From Ichthyosporea sp. XGB-2017a (lineage: Eukaryota > Opisthokonta > Ichthyosporea), in contig PDIM01010337.1 of NCBI GenBank assembly GCA_002811675.1, positions 153,305 to 217,304 on the forward strand: a DNA stretch of 64,000 bases. The letters run 5' to 3'. The notes beneath the pieces were generated by a model. That model made no database searches, had not been told where the DNA came from, and worked only from the letters and a program-made list of their open reading frames with translations. Shown here one piece after another: positions 15,052 through 39,016 of the stretch. Positions within the stretch are counted from its first letter, which is position 1. Each line of letters begins with the position of its first letter. The translations under genes were made by a program, and so were the position numbers.

Positions 15052-15911
15052 NNNNNNNNNNNNNNNNNNNNNNNNNNNNNNNNNNNNNNNNNNNNNNNNN
15101 NNNNNNNNNNNNNNNNNNNNNNNNNNNNNNNNNNNNNNNNNNNNNNNNNNNNNNNNNNNNNNNNNNNNNNNNNNNNNNNNNNNNNNNNNNNNNNNNNNNN
15201 NNNNNNNNNNNNNNNNNNNNNNNNNNNNNNNNNNNNNNNNNNNNNNNNNNNNNNNNNNNNNNNNNNNNNNNNNNNNNNNNNNNNNNNNNNNNNNNNNNNN
15301 NNNNNNNNNNNNNNNNNNNNNNNNNNNNNNNNNNNNNNNNNNNNNNNNNNNNNNNNNNNNNNNNNNNNNNNNNNNNNNNNNNNNNNNNNNNNNNNNNNNN
15401 NNNNNNNNNNNNNNNNNNNNNNNNNNNNNNNNNNNNNNNNNNNNNNNNNNNNNNNNNNNNNNNNNNNNNNNNNNNNNNNNNNNNNNNNNNNNNNNNNNNN
15501 NNNNNNNNNNNNNNNNNNNNNNNNNNNNNNNNNNNNNNNNNNNNNNNNNNNNNNNNNNNNNNNNNNNNNNNNNNNNNNNNNNNNNNNNNNNNNNNNNNNN
15601 NNNNNNNNNNNNNNNNNNNNNNNNNNNNNNNNNNNNNNNNNNNNNNNNNNNNNNNNNNNNNNNNNNNNNNNNNNNNNNNNNNNNNNNNNNNNNNNNNNNN
15701 NNNNNNNNNNNNNNNNNNNNNNNNNNNNNNNNNNNNNNNNNNNNNNNNNNNNNNNNNNNNNNNNNNNNNNNNNNNNNNNNNNNNNNNNNNNNNNNNNNNN
15801 NNNNNNNNNNNNNNNNNNNNNNNNNNNNNNNNNNNNNNNNNNNNNNNNNNNNNNNNNNNNNNNNNNNNNNNNNNNNNNNNNNNNNNNNNNNNNNNNNNNN
15901 NNNNNNNNNNN
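15052..15911. other. Assembly gap (860 N)
   Basis: Run of N. ORFs drawn across it have no meaning. Its true size is uncertain because the two edges share the same sequence. Confidence 0.99.
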
Positions 15912-16126: not shown

Positions 16127-19100
16127 ATGATAAAACTTTCTCATGAGAAAAGAGTCGAAAGACTTGACCATTACTTTAAAATAGGTGAGTTTATTGATTA
16201 TAAGTATCATAGAAAGGTGGAAAAAGTACGCTCCTTGCGTGTGTCTGATATTAACTTACTTTCCATTCGACCTCTTTGTTTTATTTTTTGGGGATGAAAT
16301 GCTTCTGTAGTTAAACGGTTCATTCTAAATGAGCAGAGTCCCACGACTGGTCTTCTCCCAGCAAGTACAGCTGTGAATAGTCATGGTGATTACACAGATG
16401 CTTGGGTGAGAGATAATGTTTATGCTATTCTGCCTGCATGGGGTCTTGCTCTCGCCTACCGTAAGGTCGATAATGATAAGGGTCGAACTTATGAGCTTGA
16501 GCAAAGCGTGGTGAAATGTATGAGGGGGCTTTTGTTTTCGATGTTGCGTCAATCCGAAAAGGTAGAAAAGTTCAAATATTCGCAGAATCCCGCGGATGCT
16601 CTTCATGCAAAATATAACGTTTGGACTGGGGGGCCTGTTGTTGGTGATCATGAATGGGGGCACTTGCAGGTAGATGCCACTTCAGTGTTTTTGCTTTTTT
16701 TGGCTCAAATGACTGCGTCGGGGCTGGAGATTATTTTCACGATCGATGAGGTTAATTTTGTACAGAATCTGGTGTACTACATTGAGAGAGCTTACAGAAC
16801 TCCTGATTACGGCATATGGGAAAGGGGCCATAAGGGAAATAGTGGTAAACCGGAACTTAACGCGAGTTCCATTGGTATGGCTAAGGCTGCCCTTGAAGCA
16901 ATTAACGGACTCAATCTCTTTGGCGAGCAAGGCAACAAACTCTCTATTATTCATGTCGATCCCGATGCCCATAATCGAAACAGAGCTATTTTATTGTCTT
17001 TCTTGCCCAGGGAGTCTAGCTCAAAAGAAACTGATAGCTCATTGTTGAGTGTTATTGGATTTCCCGCCTTTGCTGTTGGAGACGAAGAGATAGTTACTAA
17101 CACTAGAAATACCATTATCGAAAAGCTTCGTGGAAGATATGGGTTCAAGCGATTTTTGAGGGATGGCCATCAGTCGGTGTTGGAAGACAGCAACCGCCTA
17201 CATTATGAACCTGCAGAGTTGAAAATTTTTGAGGATATTGAATGCGAGTGGCCTTTGTTTTCGTGCTATATGCTTTTGGATGCCCTTTTCCGCGAAGACG
17301 ATTTTGCAGTTAGAGAGTATTTAGAATTAACTGAAAGTGTCATGGTAGATAAAGGTGATGTGATGGACCTTATTCCTGAAGTCTATTACGTTCCTGAGCA
17401 TAATGTAGAGGCAGAAAAGAAAAATCCTCACAGTCAGGATAGGCTCCCAAATGATAATGTTCCTCTGTTTTGGGCACAGTCTCTTTACATTTTATCGAAA
17501 CTTGTATTGGAGGACTTGATTTCTGTTGGCGAAATTGATCCAGTGGGAAGAAGATTGATTAAAGGTGTGCGTCCGAGACCCAATACCCGCCACTCGGCGT
17601 TCAATGTTCAGAAACGTGAAGATCTTGTGGTTCAAATGGTTCTTCTTTCAGATTCAGAGCGCCTAAAAAATGACCTGTCTACGTATGGAATCCTCACCCA
17701 AACCACGAGAGAAATTGAACCTGTTCAAGTGAAAACACCTGATATACTTGTTGACTTGTACAAAGGATTGGGTGTGAATAAGAAATTGCATCTAAGTGGT
17801 AGGCCTCCTCGGCCAATGGGTGCACTCGCAACGAGTAAAATATATCGCATTGCTGGTCAAACATTCGCTTTTACTCCACTGATTCTAAACAAAGACGACT
17901 TTTACATGTCACTGGACCAAACTCTACTCATTGACAAAATCAAAAATGAAATCAAATTTATTTGCAACAATTGGTTCATGGTTGGCCGGCCAACCATGTG
18001 CCTTATGCTTACAGAAAACATGATGCGTGGAAAACATTTTTCAAAAATGCTGGAGTTGATGGCTGAGTTCAAGCGAGGATCTTGTGAGGGCGTCCAAATT
18101 AGAGTTGGAAGACTTCAGCAATTGATTAATTGCTCTTGTGTGGAACATCTTGATTTTGTGAGGAGAGAGCAACTAGACGATGCTATTGCTCCTGAAGAAG
18201 CAACAACCTCAACTATTCTTAAACTGGATAGACAGGGGAGTGTTCGCTTTGCTATGAACCAACGTATGCATTTCCAGAGATCCCGCAAGAGTGAGTCTGC
18301 GGATGACGAGTTAGTTGAACGTGTTCATGAACCCATGGATGATTCTGTTTTAGAAGCATCCCTCTCTTTCGATTGCCGGCTGTCAAGTGGGCCGGAATTC
18401 ATGAATATGAAAGAAGAGGGGGAATTTTCGTCCGAAAATTTAGAAAACATCCCAACGGAAGATTTGCTTTTGTCTTTGGAAAAGTCAACTAATCTATGTG
18501 AGCAGGTTAACATGTTGCAATCTCTTCTTGATCGTAAAGGTCCAGATTTCGTTACAGGAATCGGATCCGCAGTTACTGTTAGAGATCTTTTAGATGAAGT
18601 TTACAACAAAGCTGGAGAGTTGGGACTCTGGTCGATTGTTAGACAGGTAGCAAGTGTGACTACAAAATTTGTTGATTCTTTGGCTCCCTCAATTACTGAA
18701 ATGTTGGTGCGAGGAAAAGAAGTTACTATAGGAACTTTTGGATTCCAAGAGTATATTATATCTGAGCCTATTAGCCCAAGTCTGCTTGTCAAAGTGCTTT
18801 ACAAGCATTGCTCTTGTGCAGATAGCAGAGAGGCTGTTTTGCAGCAGGAATTGATTCTAAATATCGCGAGTTTTATCACTACCGTTCCCGCGATGTTTGC
18901 TGGTATTATGCGGATTCGTCTTGGTTGGATCATCGAAGCAATGAAATCTGAATTGCAGTTGAGCATGTCGTTAAGAGACAAAGCGGCTGCAAATGACAAG
19001 CTTATGGGCCTTAGCCCTTATGAAATTAAAAATCTCCTAAAGAGGGTATTGACTGCCAACATCGATATAGATGAACCTGAAACCAACACCAAGTTGACTA

Positions 19101-19717
19101 ACAGAAGAAGCTTTGCTCCCCCCGAAGTGGATGAATTCGGATCTCTACAGTTTGATTTGCGCAAGTCTAGTGCAGACAAAGACGACCAATACCCTGGCAA
19201 ATGGATCCGTAGGCGTCATTTGGATGGATCTCTGAATAGAGTTCCGGAAAACTTCTATCCACGGGTGTGGGAAGTGCTGTCAAGATGTCAAGGACTTGCT
19301 GTTTATGACACTGTTTTGTCTGCAAAACCTACTGTTTATGACATGACTGCAAATGAAAAAGGCTTTGCTGTTTTGGTGGAATCGATCTTAGAAGGTATCC
19401 CGATGCCTGAGAAGAGGCAGCTGATTGTAGAGCTGTTGACTGTTCTGTCTTTTGCTTTCGATCGGTGTCCAAATATGATGGTAGACAAGACATTGCATCT
19501 GGATGTATTGGTCGAGCGGGCAAAAGACATATATATGTGCGGAATGCCAGAAGATGAATCCGCCTCAAAAAGAGACAGTTATAAAGCTTCATTTTTTGAT
19601 TTACCCCCTGCAGGTGACAGTGGGTCGACTTCTTGGTTCTTGGCTGAAGCCATTTGTCAAGACTTATCAGAGTTGCTTCCTGGGTTAAAAAAAGAAGACA
19701 TTTGTGTTATTCAGTGA
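16127..19717 (+). CDS. PHKA: Phosphorylase b kinase regulatory subunit alpha, two exons
   Basis: Regulatory subunit of phosphorylase kinase, the activator of glycogen phosphorylase. Exon 1 (16127-16184) encodes MIKLSHEKRVERLDHYFKI. A 126-nt intron (16185-16310) splits a valine codon. Exon 2 runs 16311-19717. The total is 1154 residues against about 1235 in human. Family blocks: TGLLPAST then DAWVRDNVYAILPAWGLALAYRK; ELEQSVVKCMRGLL; VVGDHEWGHLQVDATSVFLLFLAQMTASGL; ELNASSIGMAKAALEA; the glucoamylase-like domain to about residue 420; RPPRPMGALATSKIYRIAGQ. The C-terminal part WIRRRHLDGSLNRVPENFYPRVWEVL matches alpha/beta. The protein ends in CVIQ, a CaaX box like that of animal alpha. Poly(A) signal AATAAA near 19757. 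Confidence 0.96.
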
Positions 19718-22388
19718 GTGAGGAGTTTTTTTTGCCAGTTTGCTTTTCATATGGAAAATAAACCAAGTCTTTGAAGTGGGGCTGTATTTAATTTATTTGA
19801 ACTGAAACGAATAGTTACTCTTAGTTACTTGTGGACTACCAAAGAATGCATGCGGCCGGTAAGAGATTCCTTGAAACCACAGCTCATGTTTCTTTGTTCA
19901 AAGAATCTTTTGAAGACTTTCTGGAAAGCATTAACAATCCCAGCGATTTTTTTTGTACTCCTCGGAGAAATCGGAAGAACTCATGGTCGCTTAGCTAAAT
20001 TCGAAAGCACAGAGCATGAGCGCGGAGGAGAAACAACTATAACTTACATAAACTCTTCCGAAAATCGGATCTATATATATATAGAGCCTTTCATGTCCAA
20101 CCCCTGTGTAGTATAAATTGAGGGTTGGATAAAGTACGAGGCATCATATGTCTTTACATGCAGTAATGGTGATCAGCTGTACAGCATCATGTAGCAATAA
20201 CAGCCTTTAACAAATGGTTCTCATGAACATATATATTATATATACATTATGCAAGATCCCTTATTCGCATTTATATAGTAAGTACAACTGCAGAACGATG
20301 TGTATTTTTTGTACATAATTCATCAATAATAATATTAATTAGCTGATTTTAGTACTCTTCAGCAGCTACCGAATAATCCTTTCCCTGATAAGGAAGCTGT
20401 TTATTTTACCATCGACTGAGCGTTAATATATCATTATCATACCATAATTATGAAAGTAAACTGTGGTAATTAAGTCTGTATAAAACATACGGCAGAATTC
20501 CGTCTCGCAACTCATTTCATTTAGACAATCACCAACAAAACAAGAAGTTCATTAAAGAACATTTAAGTCGCTCTGAAGACAATAGTGTTGTAGTTGTCGT
20601 GGACTAACACCCTTTTCAATAGTCAGTGTTAGATGATGTTAAAGTCATAGTATACTTGATTTATCTGCTAAGAATTTTTTTCAAATAAGAGTTACACTCC
20701 CTCTTGACACATCAAATTCACCTAAACTGGTTGCGCGTTGGCTACTGTAGTACAAAACAGAATTTGAAGTGGATCAAAAGCTGATGTAATAATTCAAAGA
20801 TTTTGTATTATTTTACATTACGTTATAATAATTGCTACTAAAATTGGGCATAAAAACTCATGGCCTCATCAGCTATAAGCAGTGAAGATCTCACCCTAAA
20901 AGCCCCTTATAAATCGCGTAATTACATAATTTCCTTAACAAATTACATTATAATTAACATGCGTATAAATTTTAATACCATGCGTATTTATAAACACGAC
21001 ACCTTCGACAGCTTTTACCTGACCTGACCTGCATGACAGAACTTTATAATTCATGTCGATTTTCCTTTTCCATACAAATCTGGAAAGTTAACAATTTCAG
21101 GCGCGGGCGGCGCTGGGTGTCCAGTCAAATTTTATTCAGACATTATAATAGCACACAAAAGAAAAACTTGACAAATTACATAGAGGAACATGAAATGGCG
21201 CAGACGACGTAAGCTGAACAGCTTTCTACTGACTTATAATAAGCTATTATTATAAAGTGCAGTCGACTGCATGCGCAACTTGTAGAAGGCCGGGGAGTAC
21301 AAAGCGCAAGCGCAGCTGTCGATATATAACCAAGGAGATCTCGCTTATTCTTGCATTGATCATGAGTTATAGTCGCGATCGACGCGGCGTAATATTATAG
21401 AGTGCAGCTATCATGAGTTCAACGAGGGAGTTCAAGTACGTTACACGTTTATAATTTCCTCGATTTTTATACTATGCAAATTGCAATACTGAAATTTTTA
21501 ATAATTACTTTTGCTACCATAAAATTATTAATAATTATTTTTTTAATTACACAAGTGCACAAGTCACAACTCCTATAAATTATTACAACAATTAAGTTTT
21601 TTTTTTTCCTTCTTCCTTCTCCTTTAAATTTTCTATAAAAAGTCTTTTTCTCGTAGCTGTACGTACTGGCGGCCAGAGGCGGCCCGGGGGTAGTTTTTTT
21701 TTTTTCCAGAATATTTGCTATCGAACTGCAATGATCGATTACGTCAAAATGGATCTATAAAATCATCGAAATTTCAGATTACAAAAATCGTAATTTACAG
21801 TTACTGTAATTATCAGTAATGACTTTTTTTTAACAGTTTTAATGAGTAAATATTTTTTCTTTCTTTTATTATTAATTTTTTACTAATTTTTTTAAATTGT
21901 ACCTGAAAGTTGCGTGACGTTTTTGGATAGGCTGTTCAATACTATATTTTTCATGCCTCGCAATTGCACGAGTACGTCTAACTATACAGTTCTACTATAG
22001 TGCAGACTACTAGAGTCTTTAGTTTTGGTGTGAAGAAAGTTAGTTAGTTTTTTGGTTGATTCCTCAGAAGGAGGGTGTGATTGATTAATTAGTGTTTAGT
22101 TTTCTTTTGTTTGCTTGGTTAATCATATTGGAAAGTAGAAGAAGCTCCTTTTCTTTGTTTTTGTTGGTTTTTTTTTTGTTGGTTTTTTTGTCTTTTGTGT
22201 GCTGTTTTTTGTGTGTGTTTACACGCAGACTTTTAGGAAAGGAAGGGAAGAATCAATAGCAAGCACACAAGCAGTCGAGGGTTTAGATTGTTGTACTTGG
22301 TAATACTTTTAAAAAGAAATTAATTATTTTGGGACGTGTTATATGTATTTATAAAGAAGGAAAGAATTGCTTGTATTCATAAGTCAAA
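19718..22388. other. 2.7 kb gene-free block upstream of the homeodomain-bHLH gene
   Basis: Unusually long for this window. Mostly AT-rich, with GC-rich islands at about 21107-21125 (GGCGCGGGCGG), 21280-21325 and 21663-21692 (GGCGGCCAGAGGCGGCCC) and palindromic spots such as CGCGATCG (21374). TATA-like strings occur often, and TTTATAAAG lies at about 22349, some 40 bases before the start codon. No coding ORF or RNA gene found. It may hold distal regulatory elements, UTR exons, or nothing specific. Confidence 0.4.
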
Positions 22389-24533
22389 ATGGAAACATCA
22401 GACGCGAGCAATCCTCCGAAGGAAGAAAATGTCGTACAACCTCAGGCTCAGGTGCACCAGCAGGAAGAAATGAATCCAGCGCAGCAAGGCAATTCTAATC
22501 CTCCGTCCAGACCTATGAGCGTTCCGGCTGGAGCTGATATTAAGACTGAACGTAAAAGCTCTAGCGATTCAAATCAGAAGGAAGAGGGAATTAGTACATT
22601 GAGTAATGATAATGAGGGTTCTGAAGGTACAGGGGCGGATAGAGACTTTCGTAGAAGCCGAATCAGCTTTAGTAGAAAGCAACTTCATGAATTGGAGCTT
22701 GCATTTGAAAAAGATCACATGCCCTCTGTTTCTGATAGGCATGCCTTAGCGCAAAAGTTTGGACTGTCAGAAAAGAGTGTTCGTCATTGGTTTCAAAATA
22801 GAAGACAGAAAATGAGAGAAATTATGCGTAGAAATGAAAAGATCAGAATGTTTGGTGAGGCAGGTGTTCCACCTGATCAAGGACCTTCAATGAAAAGAAA
22901 GTCGGAGGGCGGATGGGGCCATCCAGAACAGGGGTACCCGTATCCTGGAGGCCCACCCGGTCCAAATGTTCCTATGGAGTTTCGTCAGCATTATGCAATG
23001 GGTAGGTATGGACCTGAAGGCGTTCCCCCTCCAGGATATCACGGTCATCCTGGATACCTTCCGGCTCAACAGTACTCTCAGCATGGGGGGCCTGGTAACC
23101 CAATGGACTATAGAGGTCCTCCACGTTCCCCTCGCCATGGTCCCGGTCAGGGATATCCTATGGTTCCAGGAGGGTCTCACGGACCTCATCAAGGCCATTC
23201 ACATCTCCCGCCCCCACATATTGGACATTATCCTGGTGCCCCCCCTCATCAAGATGGACATCACCAGGGTGGTCCTCCTCACCAGGGCGGCCCTCCTCAC
23301 CAGGGTGGCCCTCCTCACCAGGGTGGTCCTCCTCACCAGGGTGGTCCTCCTCACCAGGGTGGTCCTCCTCACCAGGGTGGTCCTCCTCACCAGGGAGGTC
23401 CTCCTCACCAGGGTGGTCCTCATCACCAGGGGGGGCCTCATCACCAGGGGGGCCCTCATCACCAGGGGGGGCCTCCACATCAAGGTGGTCCTCCTCATCA
23501 GGGTGGTCCCCCTCATCAAGACGGTCCATCTCATCAAAGTGGCCCCTCACACCAAGGCGGCCCACCTCATCCGGGCCATCCACAAAATGGGCATCCACAT
23601 CAAGGGCATCAACACCCAGGACACCAACACCAAGGAGAATTTTCTGAAGGGGAGCGTGGACGGCCATATCCACCTGAAGTAATGTATCAAAACCCTAGAT
23701 ATTCGAATGAGAACCTGAAGGGAAGAGAATATGGTAGCCAAGGGAAGCCAACTAGAGTGAGTCCTGTAGGCGTTTCAGGTGTCCCTGGAGATTATCGCAA
23801 GCGCCCTTCTGATAACAGAACCGAGGAAATGCATAGCAGGTATGAAAATAGCGGTGGGCCTAAGGGGGAAGGAGCTCCATTCCAAGGAAAATATACTGTG
23901 GGCGTAAAGCCGACATTTTCAGGGGGACCAGATGGGGAGAAAGTGCCTAGCATGATACCAGTTCACTACTCTGCGCCTGATAGACAAGGAATGGTTGGGA
24001 GATATAAGCATCCAGGTCAACAAGGGGATAAGAAAGAAAATATGGAGTATGAAAACAGAGAACTTTCCAAGGTACAGGGTGCTGATAGTAAACCCGGAAC
24101 CCCGATTAAGGGCGAGATAAATGGGGCTGTCTACTCTGAAAAGTCAGACTCTATGCGAACTCCGAGTCCTAATGGAGAGCGCGGGGGTGAAACGAAGAAA
24201 CGAAGCCACGCCGATGTTGAAAGAAAAAGAAGGGATGATATTGCAGAACTTATGAGCAGGCTAAGAGAAGTTATTCCGGACTGTAACGGTACCAGAGCTG
24301 TGATTTTAAGAAAAGCTATTGATTATATTAATTATCTTGAGGGCCAAGTTAAGGACTTGAAAGCAGAATATGGGGATAATCGCCCACAGCCTGTATTCAA
24401 AAGCACAGCTCAAGAAGACCAAGAAGCAAGTGAACGGCTAGCGGAATTGGCGGATGCATCTGTAGAAATTGGGAATGGGCCTGCTGCTCCTTTGACAAAT
24501 GAAGCAACTGCCCCTGTTGAACAGCAGCCATAA
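22389..24533 (+). CDS. Homeodomain plus bHLH transcription factor (single ORF)
   Basis: 714 residues in one uninterrupted frame. A non-TALE 60-residue homeodomain lies at about 87-146: R91 (position 5), F94 (8), L102 (16), F106 (20) and WFQNRRQK at 134-141, giving W48, Q50, N51 and R53. Residues 160-480 are a Pro/Gly/His/Gln-rich linker with about 17 tandem HQGGPP repeats. A bHLH domain lies at about 603-660: basic region KKRSHADVERKRRDD with H607, E611 and R615 (the H5-E9-R13 set that reads CACGTG-type E-boxes), then helix 1, a loop and helix 2 (AVILRKAIDYINYLEGQ), most like MAX/USF-class domains. Expected to be a nuclear DNA-binding regulator. I know no described family with both domains. 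The main alternative is a chimeric assembly through the repeat. Confidence 0.88.
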   Translation: METSDASNPPKEENVVQPQAQVHQQEEMNPAQQGNSNPPSRPMSVPAGADIKTERKSSSDSNQKEEGISTLSNDNEGSEGTGADRDFRRSRISFSRKQLHELELAFEKDHMPSVSDRHALAQKFGLSEKSVRHWFQNRRQKMREIMRRNEKIRMFGEAGVPPDQGPSMKRKSEGGWGHPEQGYPYPGGPPGPNVPMEFRQHYAMGRYGPEGVPPPGYHGHPGYLPAQQYSQHGGPGNPMDYRGPPRSPRHGPGQGYPMVPGGSHGPHQGHSHLPPPHIGHYPGAPPHQDGHHQGGPPHQGGPPHQGGPPHQGGPPHQGGPPHQGGPPHQGGPPHQGGPPHQGGPHHQGGPHHQGGPHHQGGPPHQGGPPHQGGPPHQDGPSHQSGPSHQGGPPHPGHPQNGHPHQGHQHPGHQHQGEFSEGERGRPYPPEVMYQNPRYSNENLKGREYGSQGKPTRVSPVGVSGVPGDYRKRPSDNRTEEMHSRYENSGGPKGEGAPFQGKYTVGVKPTFSGGPDGEKVPSMIPVHYSAPDRQGMVGRYKHPGQQGDKKENMEYENRELSKVQGADSKPGTPIKGEINGAVYSEKSDSMRTPSPNGERGGETKKRSHADVERKRRDDIAELMSRLREVIPDCNGTRAVILRKAIDYINYLEGQVKDLKAEYGDNRPQPVFKSTAQEDQEASERLAELADASVEIGNGPAAPLTNEATAPVEQQP
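23255..23575 (+). repeat. Coding minisatellite, 18-bp unit (HQGGPP), about 17 copies
   Basis: Tandem array of an 18-bp unit with consensus CACCAGGGTGGTCCTCCT, encoding His-Gln-Gly-Gly-Pro-Pro. Variants at codon 6 (PH, PS) and at third positions occur mainly in the 3' third. The array keeps the reading frame throughout. Antisense frames over it are open only because of the repeat. Confidence 0.9.
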
Positions 24534-25177
24534 GTGCTTCGTTTACAGTTCAAAGTTCCATTTCTCTTTGTATTGTAGTTTCACCGTCTATCACTCTCCA
24601 TGTCCAGTACCTATTGAAGTTTTGCGCATTCTTGTTTGCCATTTCTAGTCATACACAGCTCAGGCTTAATGCCCTGTACTAAAGCTACCCGTTAAATAAA
24701 GCACGCATGTAAATTGCTGATTTAGAATTTCTATAGCTGAGCAATATAAACATTGTAGTTATTTCGTTCAAAGTGTGACAAAACAACTTACTCGTCTTGG
24801 TCAATGTGCACGTTGTAAGGTTTTCATTCAATTGCAGAAGGTTACCGTTCGAATGTCGCCAATATCGAATAAGGAATATAGCACGATTAAGCCTCAATCC
24901 TTATTACAGTGGTCCCAGGTCCTTCTCGTCTAAACTCAAGGTACTAAAATATTTGTGGATATTGGAAGTTAGAATGCTATTCGACTTGGAACCTCAATTG
25001 ATCTATATAAGGTAACTCATATTTCCTGTTTTGGACTTTTGTTGCCATGGACCCGAAATGTTCATTTTATTTATTTTCGCAGTACGTCGTATAGTGTCGA
25101 CGCGTAGCAGTTTCATTTTTATTTAGAAGTCCTTGAAGTTTTATTTTATACTTCGCTATGTTATCTTTCTGTTGCAG
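24534..25177. other. Intergenic 3' of the homeodomain-bHLH gene
   Basis: Holds the 3' UTR, with AATAAA at about 24695. No recognised gene. A short frame at 24797-25015 is possibly part of a small spliced gene whose last exon would be 25178-25284. Confidence 0.35.
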
Positions 25178-25284
25178 CTTCTGCTCTTGCATTGACTAAT
25201 TCCCCCTCTTTTGAGGCTTTCATTTTAAACGGATTCGCTCTCGGCTTTGGTTTTGGTTTGATTGCGCAAAAGAGCTATTCCTAA
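25178..25284 (+). CDS. Possible terminal exon of a small membrane protein
   Basis: After a good acceptor (TTATCTTTCTGTTGCAG ending at 25177), a frame reads SALALTNSPSFEAF followed by ILNGFALGFGFGLIAQKSYS and a TAA at 25282. The Gly/Phe/Leu pattern resembles a small single-span membrane protein. I could not find a matching upstream exon with compatible phase, although a donor-like AAG|GTAACT sits at 25011. It ends about 100 bases before the start codon of the next gene. Not assigned to a family. Confidence 0.3.
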
Positions 25285-25381
25285 AGTCGAGCTCCGTATT
25301 TTCCACCGTCAAAGCCCTAACGCAGCCCTAAAAAAATTGAACAACGAGCCACAAGAGCATTCAAGACACACTACTCGTGTT

Positions 25382-38096: not shown

Positions 38097-39016
38097 NNNN
38101 NNNNNNNNNNNNNNNNNNNNNNNNNNNNNNNNNNNNNNNNNNNNNNNNNNNNNNNNNNNNNNNNNNNNNNNNNNNNNNNNNNNNNNNNNNNNNNNNNNNN
38201 NNNNNNNNNNNNNNNNNNNNNNNNNNNNNNNNNNNNNNNNNNNNNNNNNNNNNNNNNNNNNNNNNNNNNNNNNNNNNNNNNNNNNNNNNNNNNNNNNNNN
38301 NNNNNNNNNNNNNNNNNNNNNNNNNNNNNNNNNNNNNNNNNNNNNNNNNNNNNNNNNNNNNNNNNNNNNNNNNNNNNNNNNNNNNNNNNNNNNNNNNNNN
38401 NNNNNNNNNNNNNNNNNNNNNNNNNNNNNNNNNNNNNNNNNNNNNNNNNNNNNNNNNNNNNNNNNNNNNNNNNNNNNNNNNNNNNNNNNNNNNNNNNNNN
38501 NNNNNNNNNNNNNNNNNNNNNNNNNNNNNNNNNNNNNNNNNNNNNNNNNNNNNNNNNNNNNNNNNNNNNNNNNNNNNNNNNNNNNNNNNNNNNNNNNNNN
38601 NNNNNNNNNNNNNNNNNNNNNNNNNNNNNNNNNNNNNNNNNNNNNNNNNNNNNNNNNNNNNNNNNNNNNNNNNNNNNNNNNNNNNNNNNNNNNNNNNNNN
38701 NNNNNNNNNNNNNNNNNNNNNNNNNNNNNNNNNNNNNNNNNNNNNNNNNNNNNNNNNNNNNNNNNNNNNNNNNNNNNNNNNNNNNNNNNNNNNNNNNNNN
38801 NNNNNNNNNNNNNNNNNNNNNNNNNNNNNNNNNNNNNNNNNNNNNNNNNNNNNNNNNNNNNNNNNNNNNNNNNNNNNNNNNNNNNNNNNNNNNNNNNNNN
38901 NNNNNNNNNNNNNNNNNNNNNNNNNNNNNNNNNNNNNNNNNNNNNNNNNNNNNNNNNNNNNNNNNNNNNNNNNNNNNNNNNNNNNNNNNNNNNNNNNNNN
39001 NNNNNNNNNNNNNNNN
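38097..39016. other. Assembly gap (920 N)
   Basis: Run of N. The flanks differ from each other, unlike the first gap. ORFs across it are meaningless. Confidence 0.99.

Follow-up and report, generated by a model that had tools for sequence, protein, structure and literature searches.

A homeodomain and a bHLH domain predicted in one polypeptide of Ichthyosporea sp. XGB-2017a

Results and discussion

Organization of the locus

The window, i.e. the whole stretch of DNA analysed here, comprises 64,000 nucleotides of the Ichthyosporea sp. XGB-2017a genome (Assembly GCA_002811675.1, contig PDIM01010337.1, positions 153,305 to 217,304), and lies within the contig designated C175 in our searches. The uninterrupted 714-codon frame on which the original prediction was built is present on the forward strand and specifies a homeodomain, a long linker, and a bHLH domain, flanked by two tails (Table 1). 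The ATG of this frame lies in the context GTCAAAATGG and is preceded by an in-frame TAA and two codons. At the other end, the candidate polyadenylation signal is the sole AATAAA or ATTAAA found within 22000–25300, and it is located past the stop codon that follows the bHLH domain.

Table 1. Features of the homeodomain–bHLH gene (positions are those of the window)
Feature	Position	Strand	Evidence
Homeodomain–linker–bHLH ORF, 714 amino acids plus stop, read as a single exon	22389..24533	+	ORF listing, Pfam
N-terminal tail, residues 1–86, polar by eye	22389..22646	+	Translation
Homeodomain, residues 88–143, non-TALE, Q50 N51	22650..22817	+	PF00046 (E 1.2e-18), residue positions, concordant genome scan
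Linker, residues 147–602, G/P/H/Q-rich by eye, putatively disordered	22827..24194	+	Translation
Tandem array, 17 in-frame 18-bp units, consensus HQGGPP	23262..23567	+	Unit alignment
bHLH domain, residues 603–651, triad H607-E611-R615	24195..24341	+	PF00010 (E 5.2e-11), concordant genome scan, best solved-structure match Max
C-terminal tail, residues 652–714	24342..24530	+	Translation
AATAAA, candidate polyadenylation signal	24695..24700	+	Motif search

The gene itself contains no N. The scaffold gaps of the window are located elsewhere, at 15052–15911 and 38097–39016 (860 and 920 N, respectively), and account for the very low GC content of the window bins concerned. Between the first gap and the gene, a single 1139-codon frame on the forward strand (16298–19714) gave glycosyl hydrolase 15 and KPBB_C matches, and corresponds to a phosphorylase b kinase regulatory-type subunit. 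By eye, long frames without interruption are a feature of the window. The base composition had been described as running smoothly across the link between the two domains. This does not apply to the GC content, for which successive 1-kb bins between 22001 and 25000 gave values of 0.40, 0.57, and 0.42, although the third-position GC content stays between 0.30 and 0.40 throughout all seven parts into which the protein was divided.

The two DNA-binding domains

An HMM scan with PF00046 and PF00010, which had been proposed as a check, placed both domains in one frame with scores well over the Pfam cut-offs (22.9 and 20.7 bits, respectively). The homeodomain match reached 67.1 bits and covers profile positions 1–56 of 57; because its 56 residues align to 56 profile positions, there is no TALE-type insertion. 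The absence of the three-residue insertion between helices 1 and 2 agrees with the score obtained for PF05920 (Homeobox_KN), which was 19 bits against a cut-off of 24 bits, and the domain is thus not assigned to the TALE group. Residues R5, L16, F20, W48, F49, Q50, N51, and R53 are all kept, including the three (W48, N51, and R53) from which a complete non-TALE homeodomain had been recognized. Position 47 is occupied by His, which is unusual at this position, and the site preference of the homeodomain is therefore uncertain. None of the five Pfam families with matches to the fused protein at E 1 or below was a paired, POU, LIM, or CUT domain and, as no associated domain is present, the homeodomain does not fall into the PRD/PAX, POU, or LIM class. 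The best-scoring solved homeodomains were those of DUX4 and of paired/aristaless proteins.

The bHLH domain, which likewise turned out to be complete and to lie about 450 residues past the homeodomain, scored 42.6 bits and covers the complete profile (positions 1–53 of 53). Its basic region, starting at residue 603, reads KKRSHADVERKRR and contains the predicted H-E-R triad. An H5-E9-R13 triad in the basic region is the mark of group B bHLH proteins, the CACGTG binders. We infer from these residues that the domain belongs with group B and would bind CACGTG-type sites. Among solved structures, the best match of the domain was Max (E 3e-07). A tree of 13 bHLH domains, comprising one Max chain and 12 of the 17 HLH matches described below (L013, L016, L018, and the matches at C94 and C180:48033, to which no locus corresponds, were left out), did not place the fused domain with support.

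Coding potential of the linker

The tandem array within the linker was used to evaluate the frame in which this region is read. Eighteen units of 18 bp can be aligned from 23262, i.e. the 17 regular units and one degenerate unit at 23568, and together they show 43 differences from the consensus. Thirty-two of these are synonymous in the frame that joins the two domains, where 26% would be expected (one-sided binomial p 4e-11, with the differences treated as independent, although array copies share changes); when the two remaining forward frames are scored cyclically, the synonymous differences number 5 and 6 of the same 43. This synonymous bias indicates that the array is probably translated in the domain-joining frame.

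The length of the open frame was evaluated by first-order simulations, in which codons 396–600 remained free of stops in none of 5000 runs and codons 147–290 in 36 of 5000; over codons 396–600, the other five frames contain 3 to 25 stops each. When ten other frames from the window served as the reference for synonymous codon usage, each of the seven protein parts fitted better in the fusion frame than in either of the two alternative forward frames, the advantage being marginal in the homeodomain part (0.033 vs 0.028). That the locus consists of two separate genes connected by a frame left open by chance was rejected on the basis of the synonymous pattern and the stop-free length.

Homeodomain and bHLH genes in the genome

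Profile searches covered the 25.06-Mb assembly of 291 contigs and were run exon by exon, so that the counts are lower bounds. At least 17 HLH matches and at least five homeodomain matches were identified, and only the frame on C175 contains both. The five homeodomain matches are distributed among four frames: a frame on C134 that also carries a LIM domain, the fused gene, and two TALE-like multi-homeodomain frames on C107 and C239. The C239 frame (L004:445–2496, forward strand) comprises 684 amino acids with four Homeobox_KN (TALE-like) stretches, and that on C107 (L003:1153–3156, reverse strand), which has a listed length of 4341 amino acids and was read in part, contains two TALE-like homeodomains. 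No POU domain was found in the genome search.

A genome search with the whole protein recovered the gene itself and seven partial matches; only one copy was found. The homeodomain relative among these matches is the LIM-homeobox gene L001 on C134 (30% identity over residues 84–167), which is the sole other homeodomain match of this genome that is not TALE-like in appearance, but which differs from the fused gene in having a LIM domain and no HLH match in its own frame. LIM-homeobox genes have been reported for Corallochytrium limacisporum and other unicellular holozoans (PMC5560861).

The nearest genomic relative of the bHLH domain is found on C168 (40% identity over residues 597–668). This best-scoring relative belongs to locus L017 (1282–2829, forward strand), where a frame of 516 amino acids contains bHLH, PB1, and CRAL-TRIO domains and a run of N lies upstream. 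A further unexpected pairing is found in L009 (1–1764, forward strand) on C103, in which a frame of at least 588 amino acids combines two response-regulator receiver domains with a bHLH domain. As at least two further unexpected bHLH pairings thus occur in the same genome, this lineage may be characterized by the joining of other domains to bHLH. L007 and L010 are two separate Max-like genes, clearer in this respect than the fused bHLH domain, and are possible partners for it.

Proposed function and alternative explanations

Domains of the bHLH type act as dimers, and a complex containing the fused protein would therefore carry one or two homeodomains, each on a linker of ~456 residues. The reading that we favour, to which we assign a probability of roughly 0.6, is that the gene encodes a regulator in which a bHLH dimer carries flexibly tethered homeodomains, the bHLH part setting the E-box and the homeodomain increasing affinity or contacting DNA a second time over a variable distance. 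The bHLH domain would form homodimers or would pair with other bHLH proteins encoded in the genome, e.g. the two Max-like ones, and the dimer would bind CACGTG-type E-boxes. Each fused subunit would supply a homeodomain on its flexible-looking linker, and this homeodomain could contact a TAAT-like site, over a distance that can vary, or another segment of DNA. Such an arrangement would benefit affinity and target choice through avidity and not through a fixed composite site. As to origin, a homeobox gene probably became fused with a downstream bHLH gene, and the HQGGPP array probably grew later.

The numbers of TAAT/ATTA motifs lying 0–12 bases from CACGTG were 247 vs 311 and 253 vs 323, the second number of each pair being that of the reversed-pattern control (raw counts, uncorrected for hexamer frequency). 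These counts speak weakly against a widely used close composite site, and not against flexible tethering. The same lack of an excess of paired sites can also be read in favour of a different view, in which there is one gene and one protein but only one of the two domains is responsible for DNA binding in vivo, while its companion serves as a protein-contact surface or is a passenger. Homeodomains and HLH domains make protein contacts as well, and the His at homeodomain position 47 would also fit this view. However, the base-contact residues checked are kept in both domains, the scores of which are far above the cut-offs, whereas a domain carried along as a passenger should have decayed. We consider the single-driver arrangement unlikely, although it retains some weight.

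It is improbable that the locus makes two products, namely a long homeodomain–bHLH form and a shorter single-domain form that would arise if transcription or translation began internally or if the bHLH domain were spliced out in frame. The link had been described as free of stop and splice signals; the first part of this description stands, but donor-like sites are present in the ORF, i.e. GTGAGT at 23757 and weaker ones at 22855 and 23002, together with seven acceptor-like sites. Pairing 22855 with the acceptor-like site ending at 23034 (180 bases) would remove an in-frame part of the linker and leave the two domains in place, pairing 23757 with that ending at 24389 (633 bases) would delete the bHLH domain in frame, and pairing 23757 with 23922 would break the bHLH frame; further in-frame splice-like pairs extend to 24465. 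In-frame Met codons also occur between the domains, e.g. at residues 432 and 535. Single-domain products could in principle result from initiation at one of these codons or from splicing within the linker. On the other hand, the one intron worked out for comparison in this window, that of a Rab-like gene, is 98 bases long and starts with GTAAGT, whereas GTAAG does not occur anywhere in the 714-codon ORF, and the only AATAAA is situated 3' of the bHLH domain.

A collapsed or chimeric join at the array, which the original prediction had named as one of the observations that would overturn it, was examined by searching the genome with the consensus unit, and with this unit alone, of the HQGGPP array. 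With up to 2 mismatches allowed, the consensus 18-mer gave 11 matches in the array and two elsewhere, both on C59 and both with 2 mismatches; since the unit is nearly confined to this locus, a false join driven by the repeat is unlikely. That two genes were joined here by the assembly is very improbable: short reads may not span the array (about 306 bp), its copy number may be wrong, N gaps exist elsewhere in the window, and the linker has two weak low-complexity matches, on C164 and C262, but the frame, the codon choice, and the G/P/H-rich composition carry on at both sides of the array, no N occurs within the gene, and the consensus unit is almost exclusive to the locus. The domain scores, the open frame, the synonymous pattern, and the near-uniqueness of the array together support the interpretation that the 714-codon frame is a real gene for one polypeptide with both a homeodomain and a bHLH domain.

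Novelty and significance

No described family joining the two domains was known when the frame was noticed, and our searches, within their limited scope, returned none. In a literature search that largely did not extend to subscription papers and preprints, no described homeodomain–bHLH fusion was found, and the passages of the two papers retrieved by names for such a fusion (PMC12119339 and PMC7619044) concern separate proteins that share sites. The terms 'bHLH', 'HLH', and 'helix-loop-helix' are absent from the text of a homeodomain review (PMC4901127), and 'bhlh' is absent from the main text of the 2017 genome paper in eLife (PMC5560861); it is possible that the supplementary domain tables of the latter already list the pairing automatically. 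In a protein database search with the full-length query, in which 8000 candidates were scored, no relative with both domains was found, and the sole match returned was a weak homeodomain one, to an orthopedia protein of Diachasma alloeum (E 3.4e-4). When the bHLH region (limit E 0.01) and the homeodomain region (a strict limit of E 1e-5) were used as queries, 13 and 9 candidates, respectively, were scored and none was retained; all of these database searches are weak negatives.

These results suggest that the pairing is new within a known kind, i.e. transcription factors with two different DNA-binding domains. We tentatively put forward the possibility that the protein is the founding member of an undescribed transcription factor class, whose homeodomain and bHLH domain, covalently joined in a unicellular animal relative, would act as one bivalent regulator. 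In animal development, the homeodomain and bHLH proteins are two of the main families of regulators, and they can act on shared sites as separate proteins (PMC12119339). A natural covalent fusion of the two in a likely unicellular holozoan would offer a direct system in which to follow the effect of tethering on target choice. The fusion also suggests that transcription factors have combined domains in ways that lie beyond the known animal repertoire.

Comparison with known systems

To our knowledge, homeodomains and bHLH domains of animals work together only as separate, cooperating proteins. With group B bHLH proteins (Max, SREBP, USF, and Myc), the fused protein shares the H-E-R triad, and Max is the best solved-structure match of its bHLH domain; it differs from them in a loop that is three residues shorter than that of Max, in the absence, by eye, of a long leucine zipper after helix 2, and in the presence of a homeodomain in the same chain.

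Homeodomain proteins of animals may bear a second DNA-binding domain, such as PAIRED, POU, PROS, ZF, or CUT, as described in the homeodomain review (PMC4901127). The fused protein resembles these in that one polypeptide contains a homeodomain and an extra DNA-binding domain, but its second domain is a bHLH domain, and paired, POU, and CUT domains are absent.

The same two families also meet on DNA in animals. Composite sites are bound jointly by a bHLH protein and a separate homeodomain protein, as seen in CAP-SELEX pairs (PMC12119339), and endoderm enhancers contain homeodomain and bHLH sites at a set spacing of 12 bp, with no physical interaction known for those pairs (PMC7619044). The likeness to the present case lies in the identity of the two families, which act jointly on DNA or have sites at set spacing. 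In those systems, the two proteins are separate, whereas here the domains are tethered by ~456 residues and the basic region is of the CACGTG type; a covalent tether of this length predicts that the spacing between the two sites would be loose.
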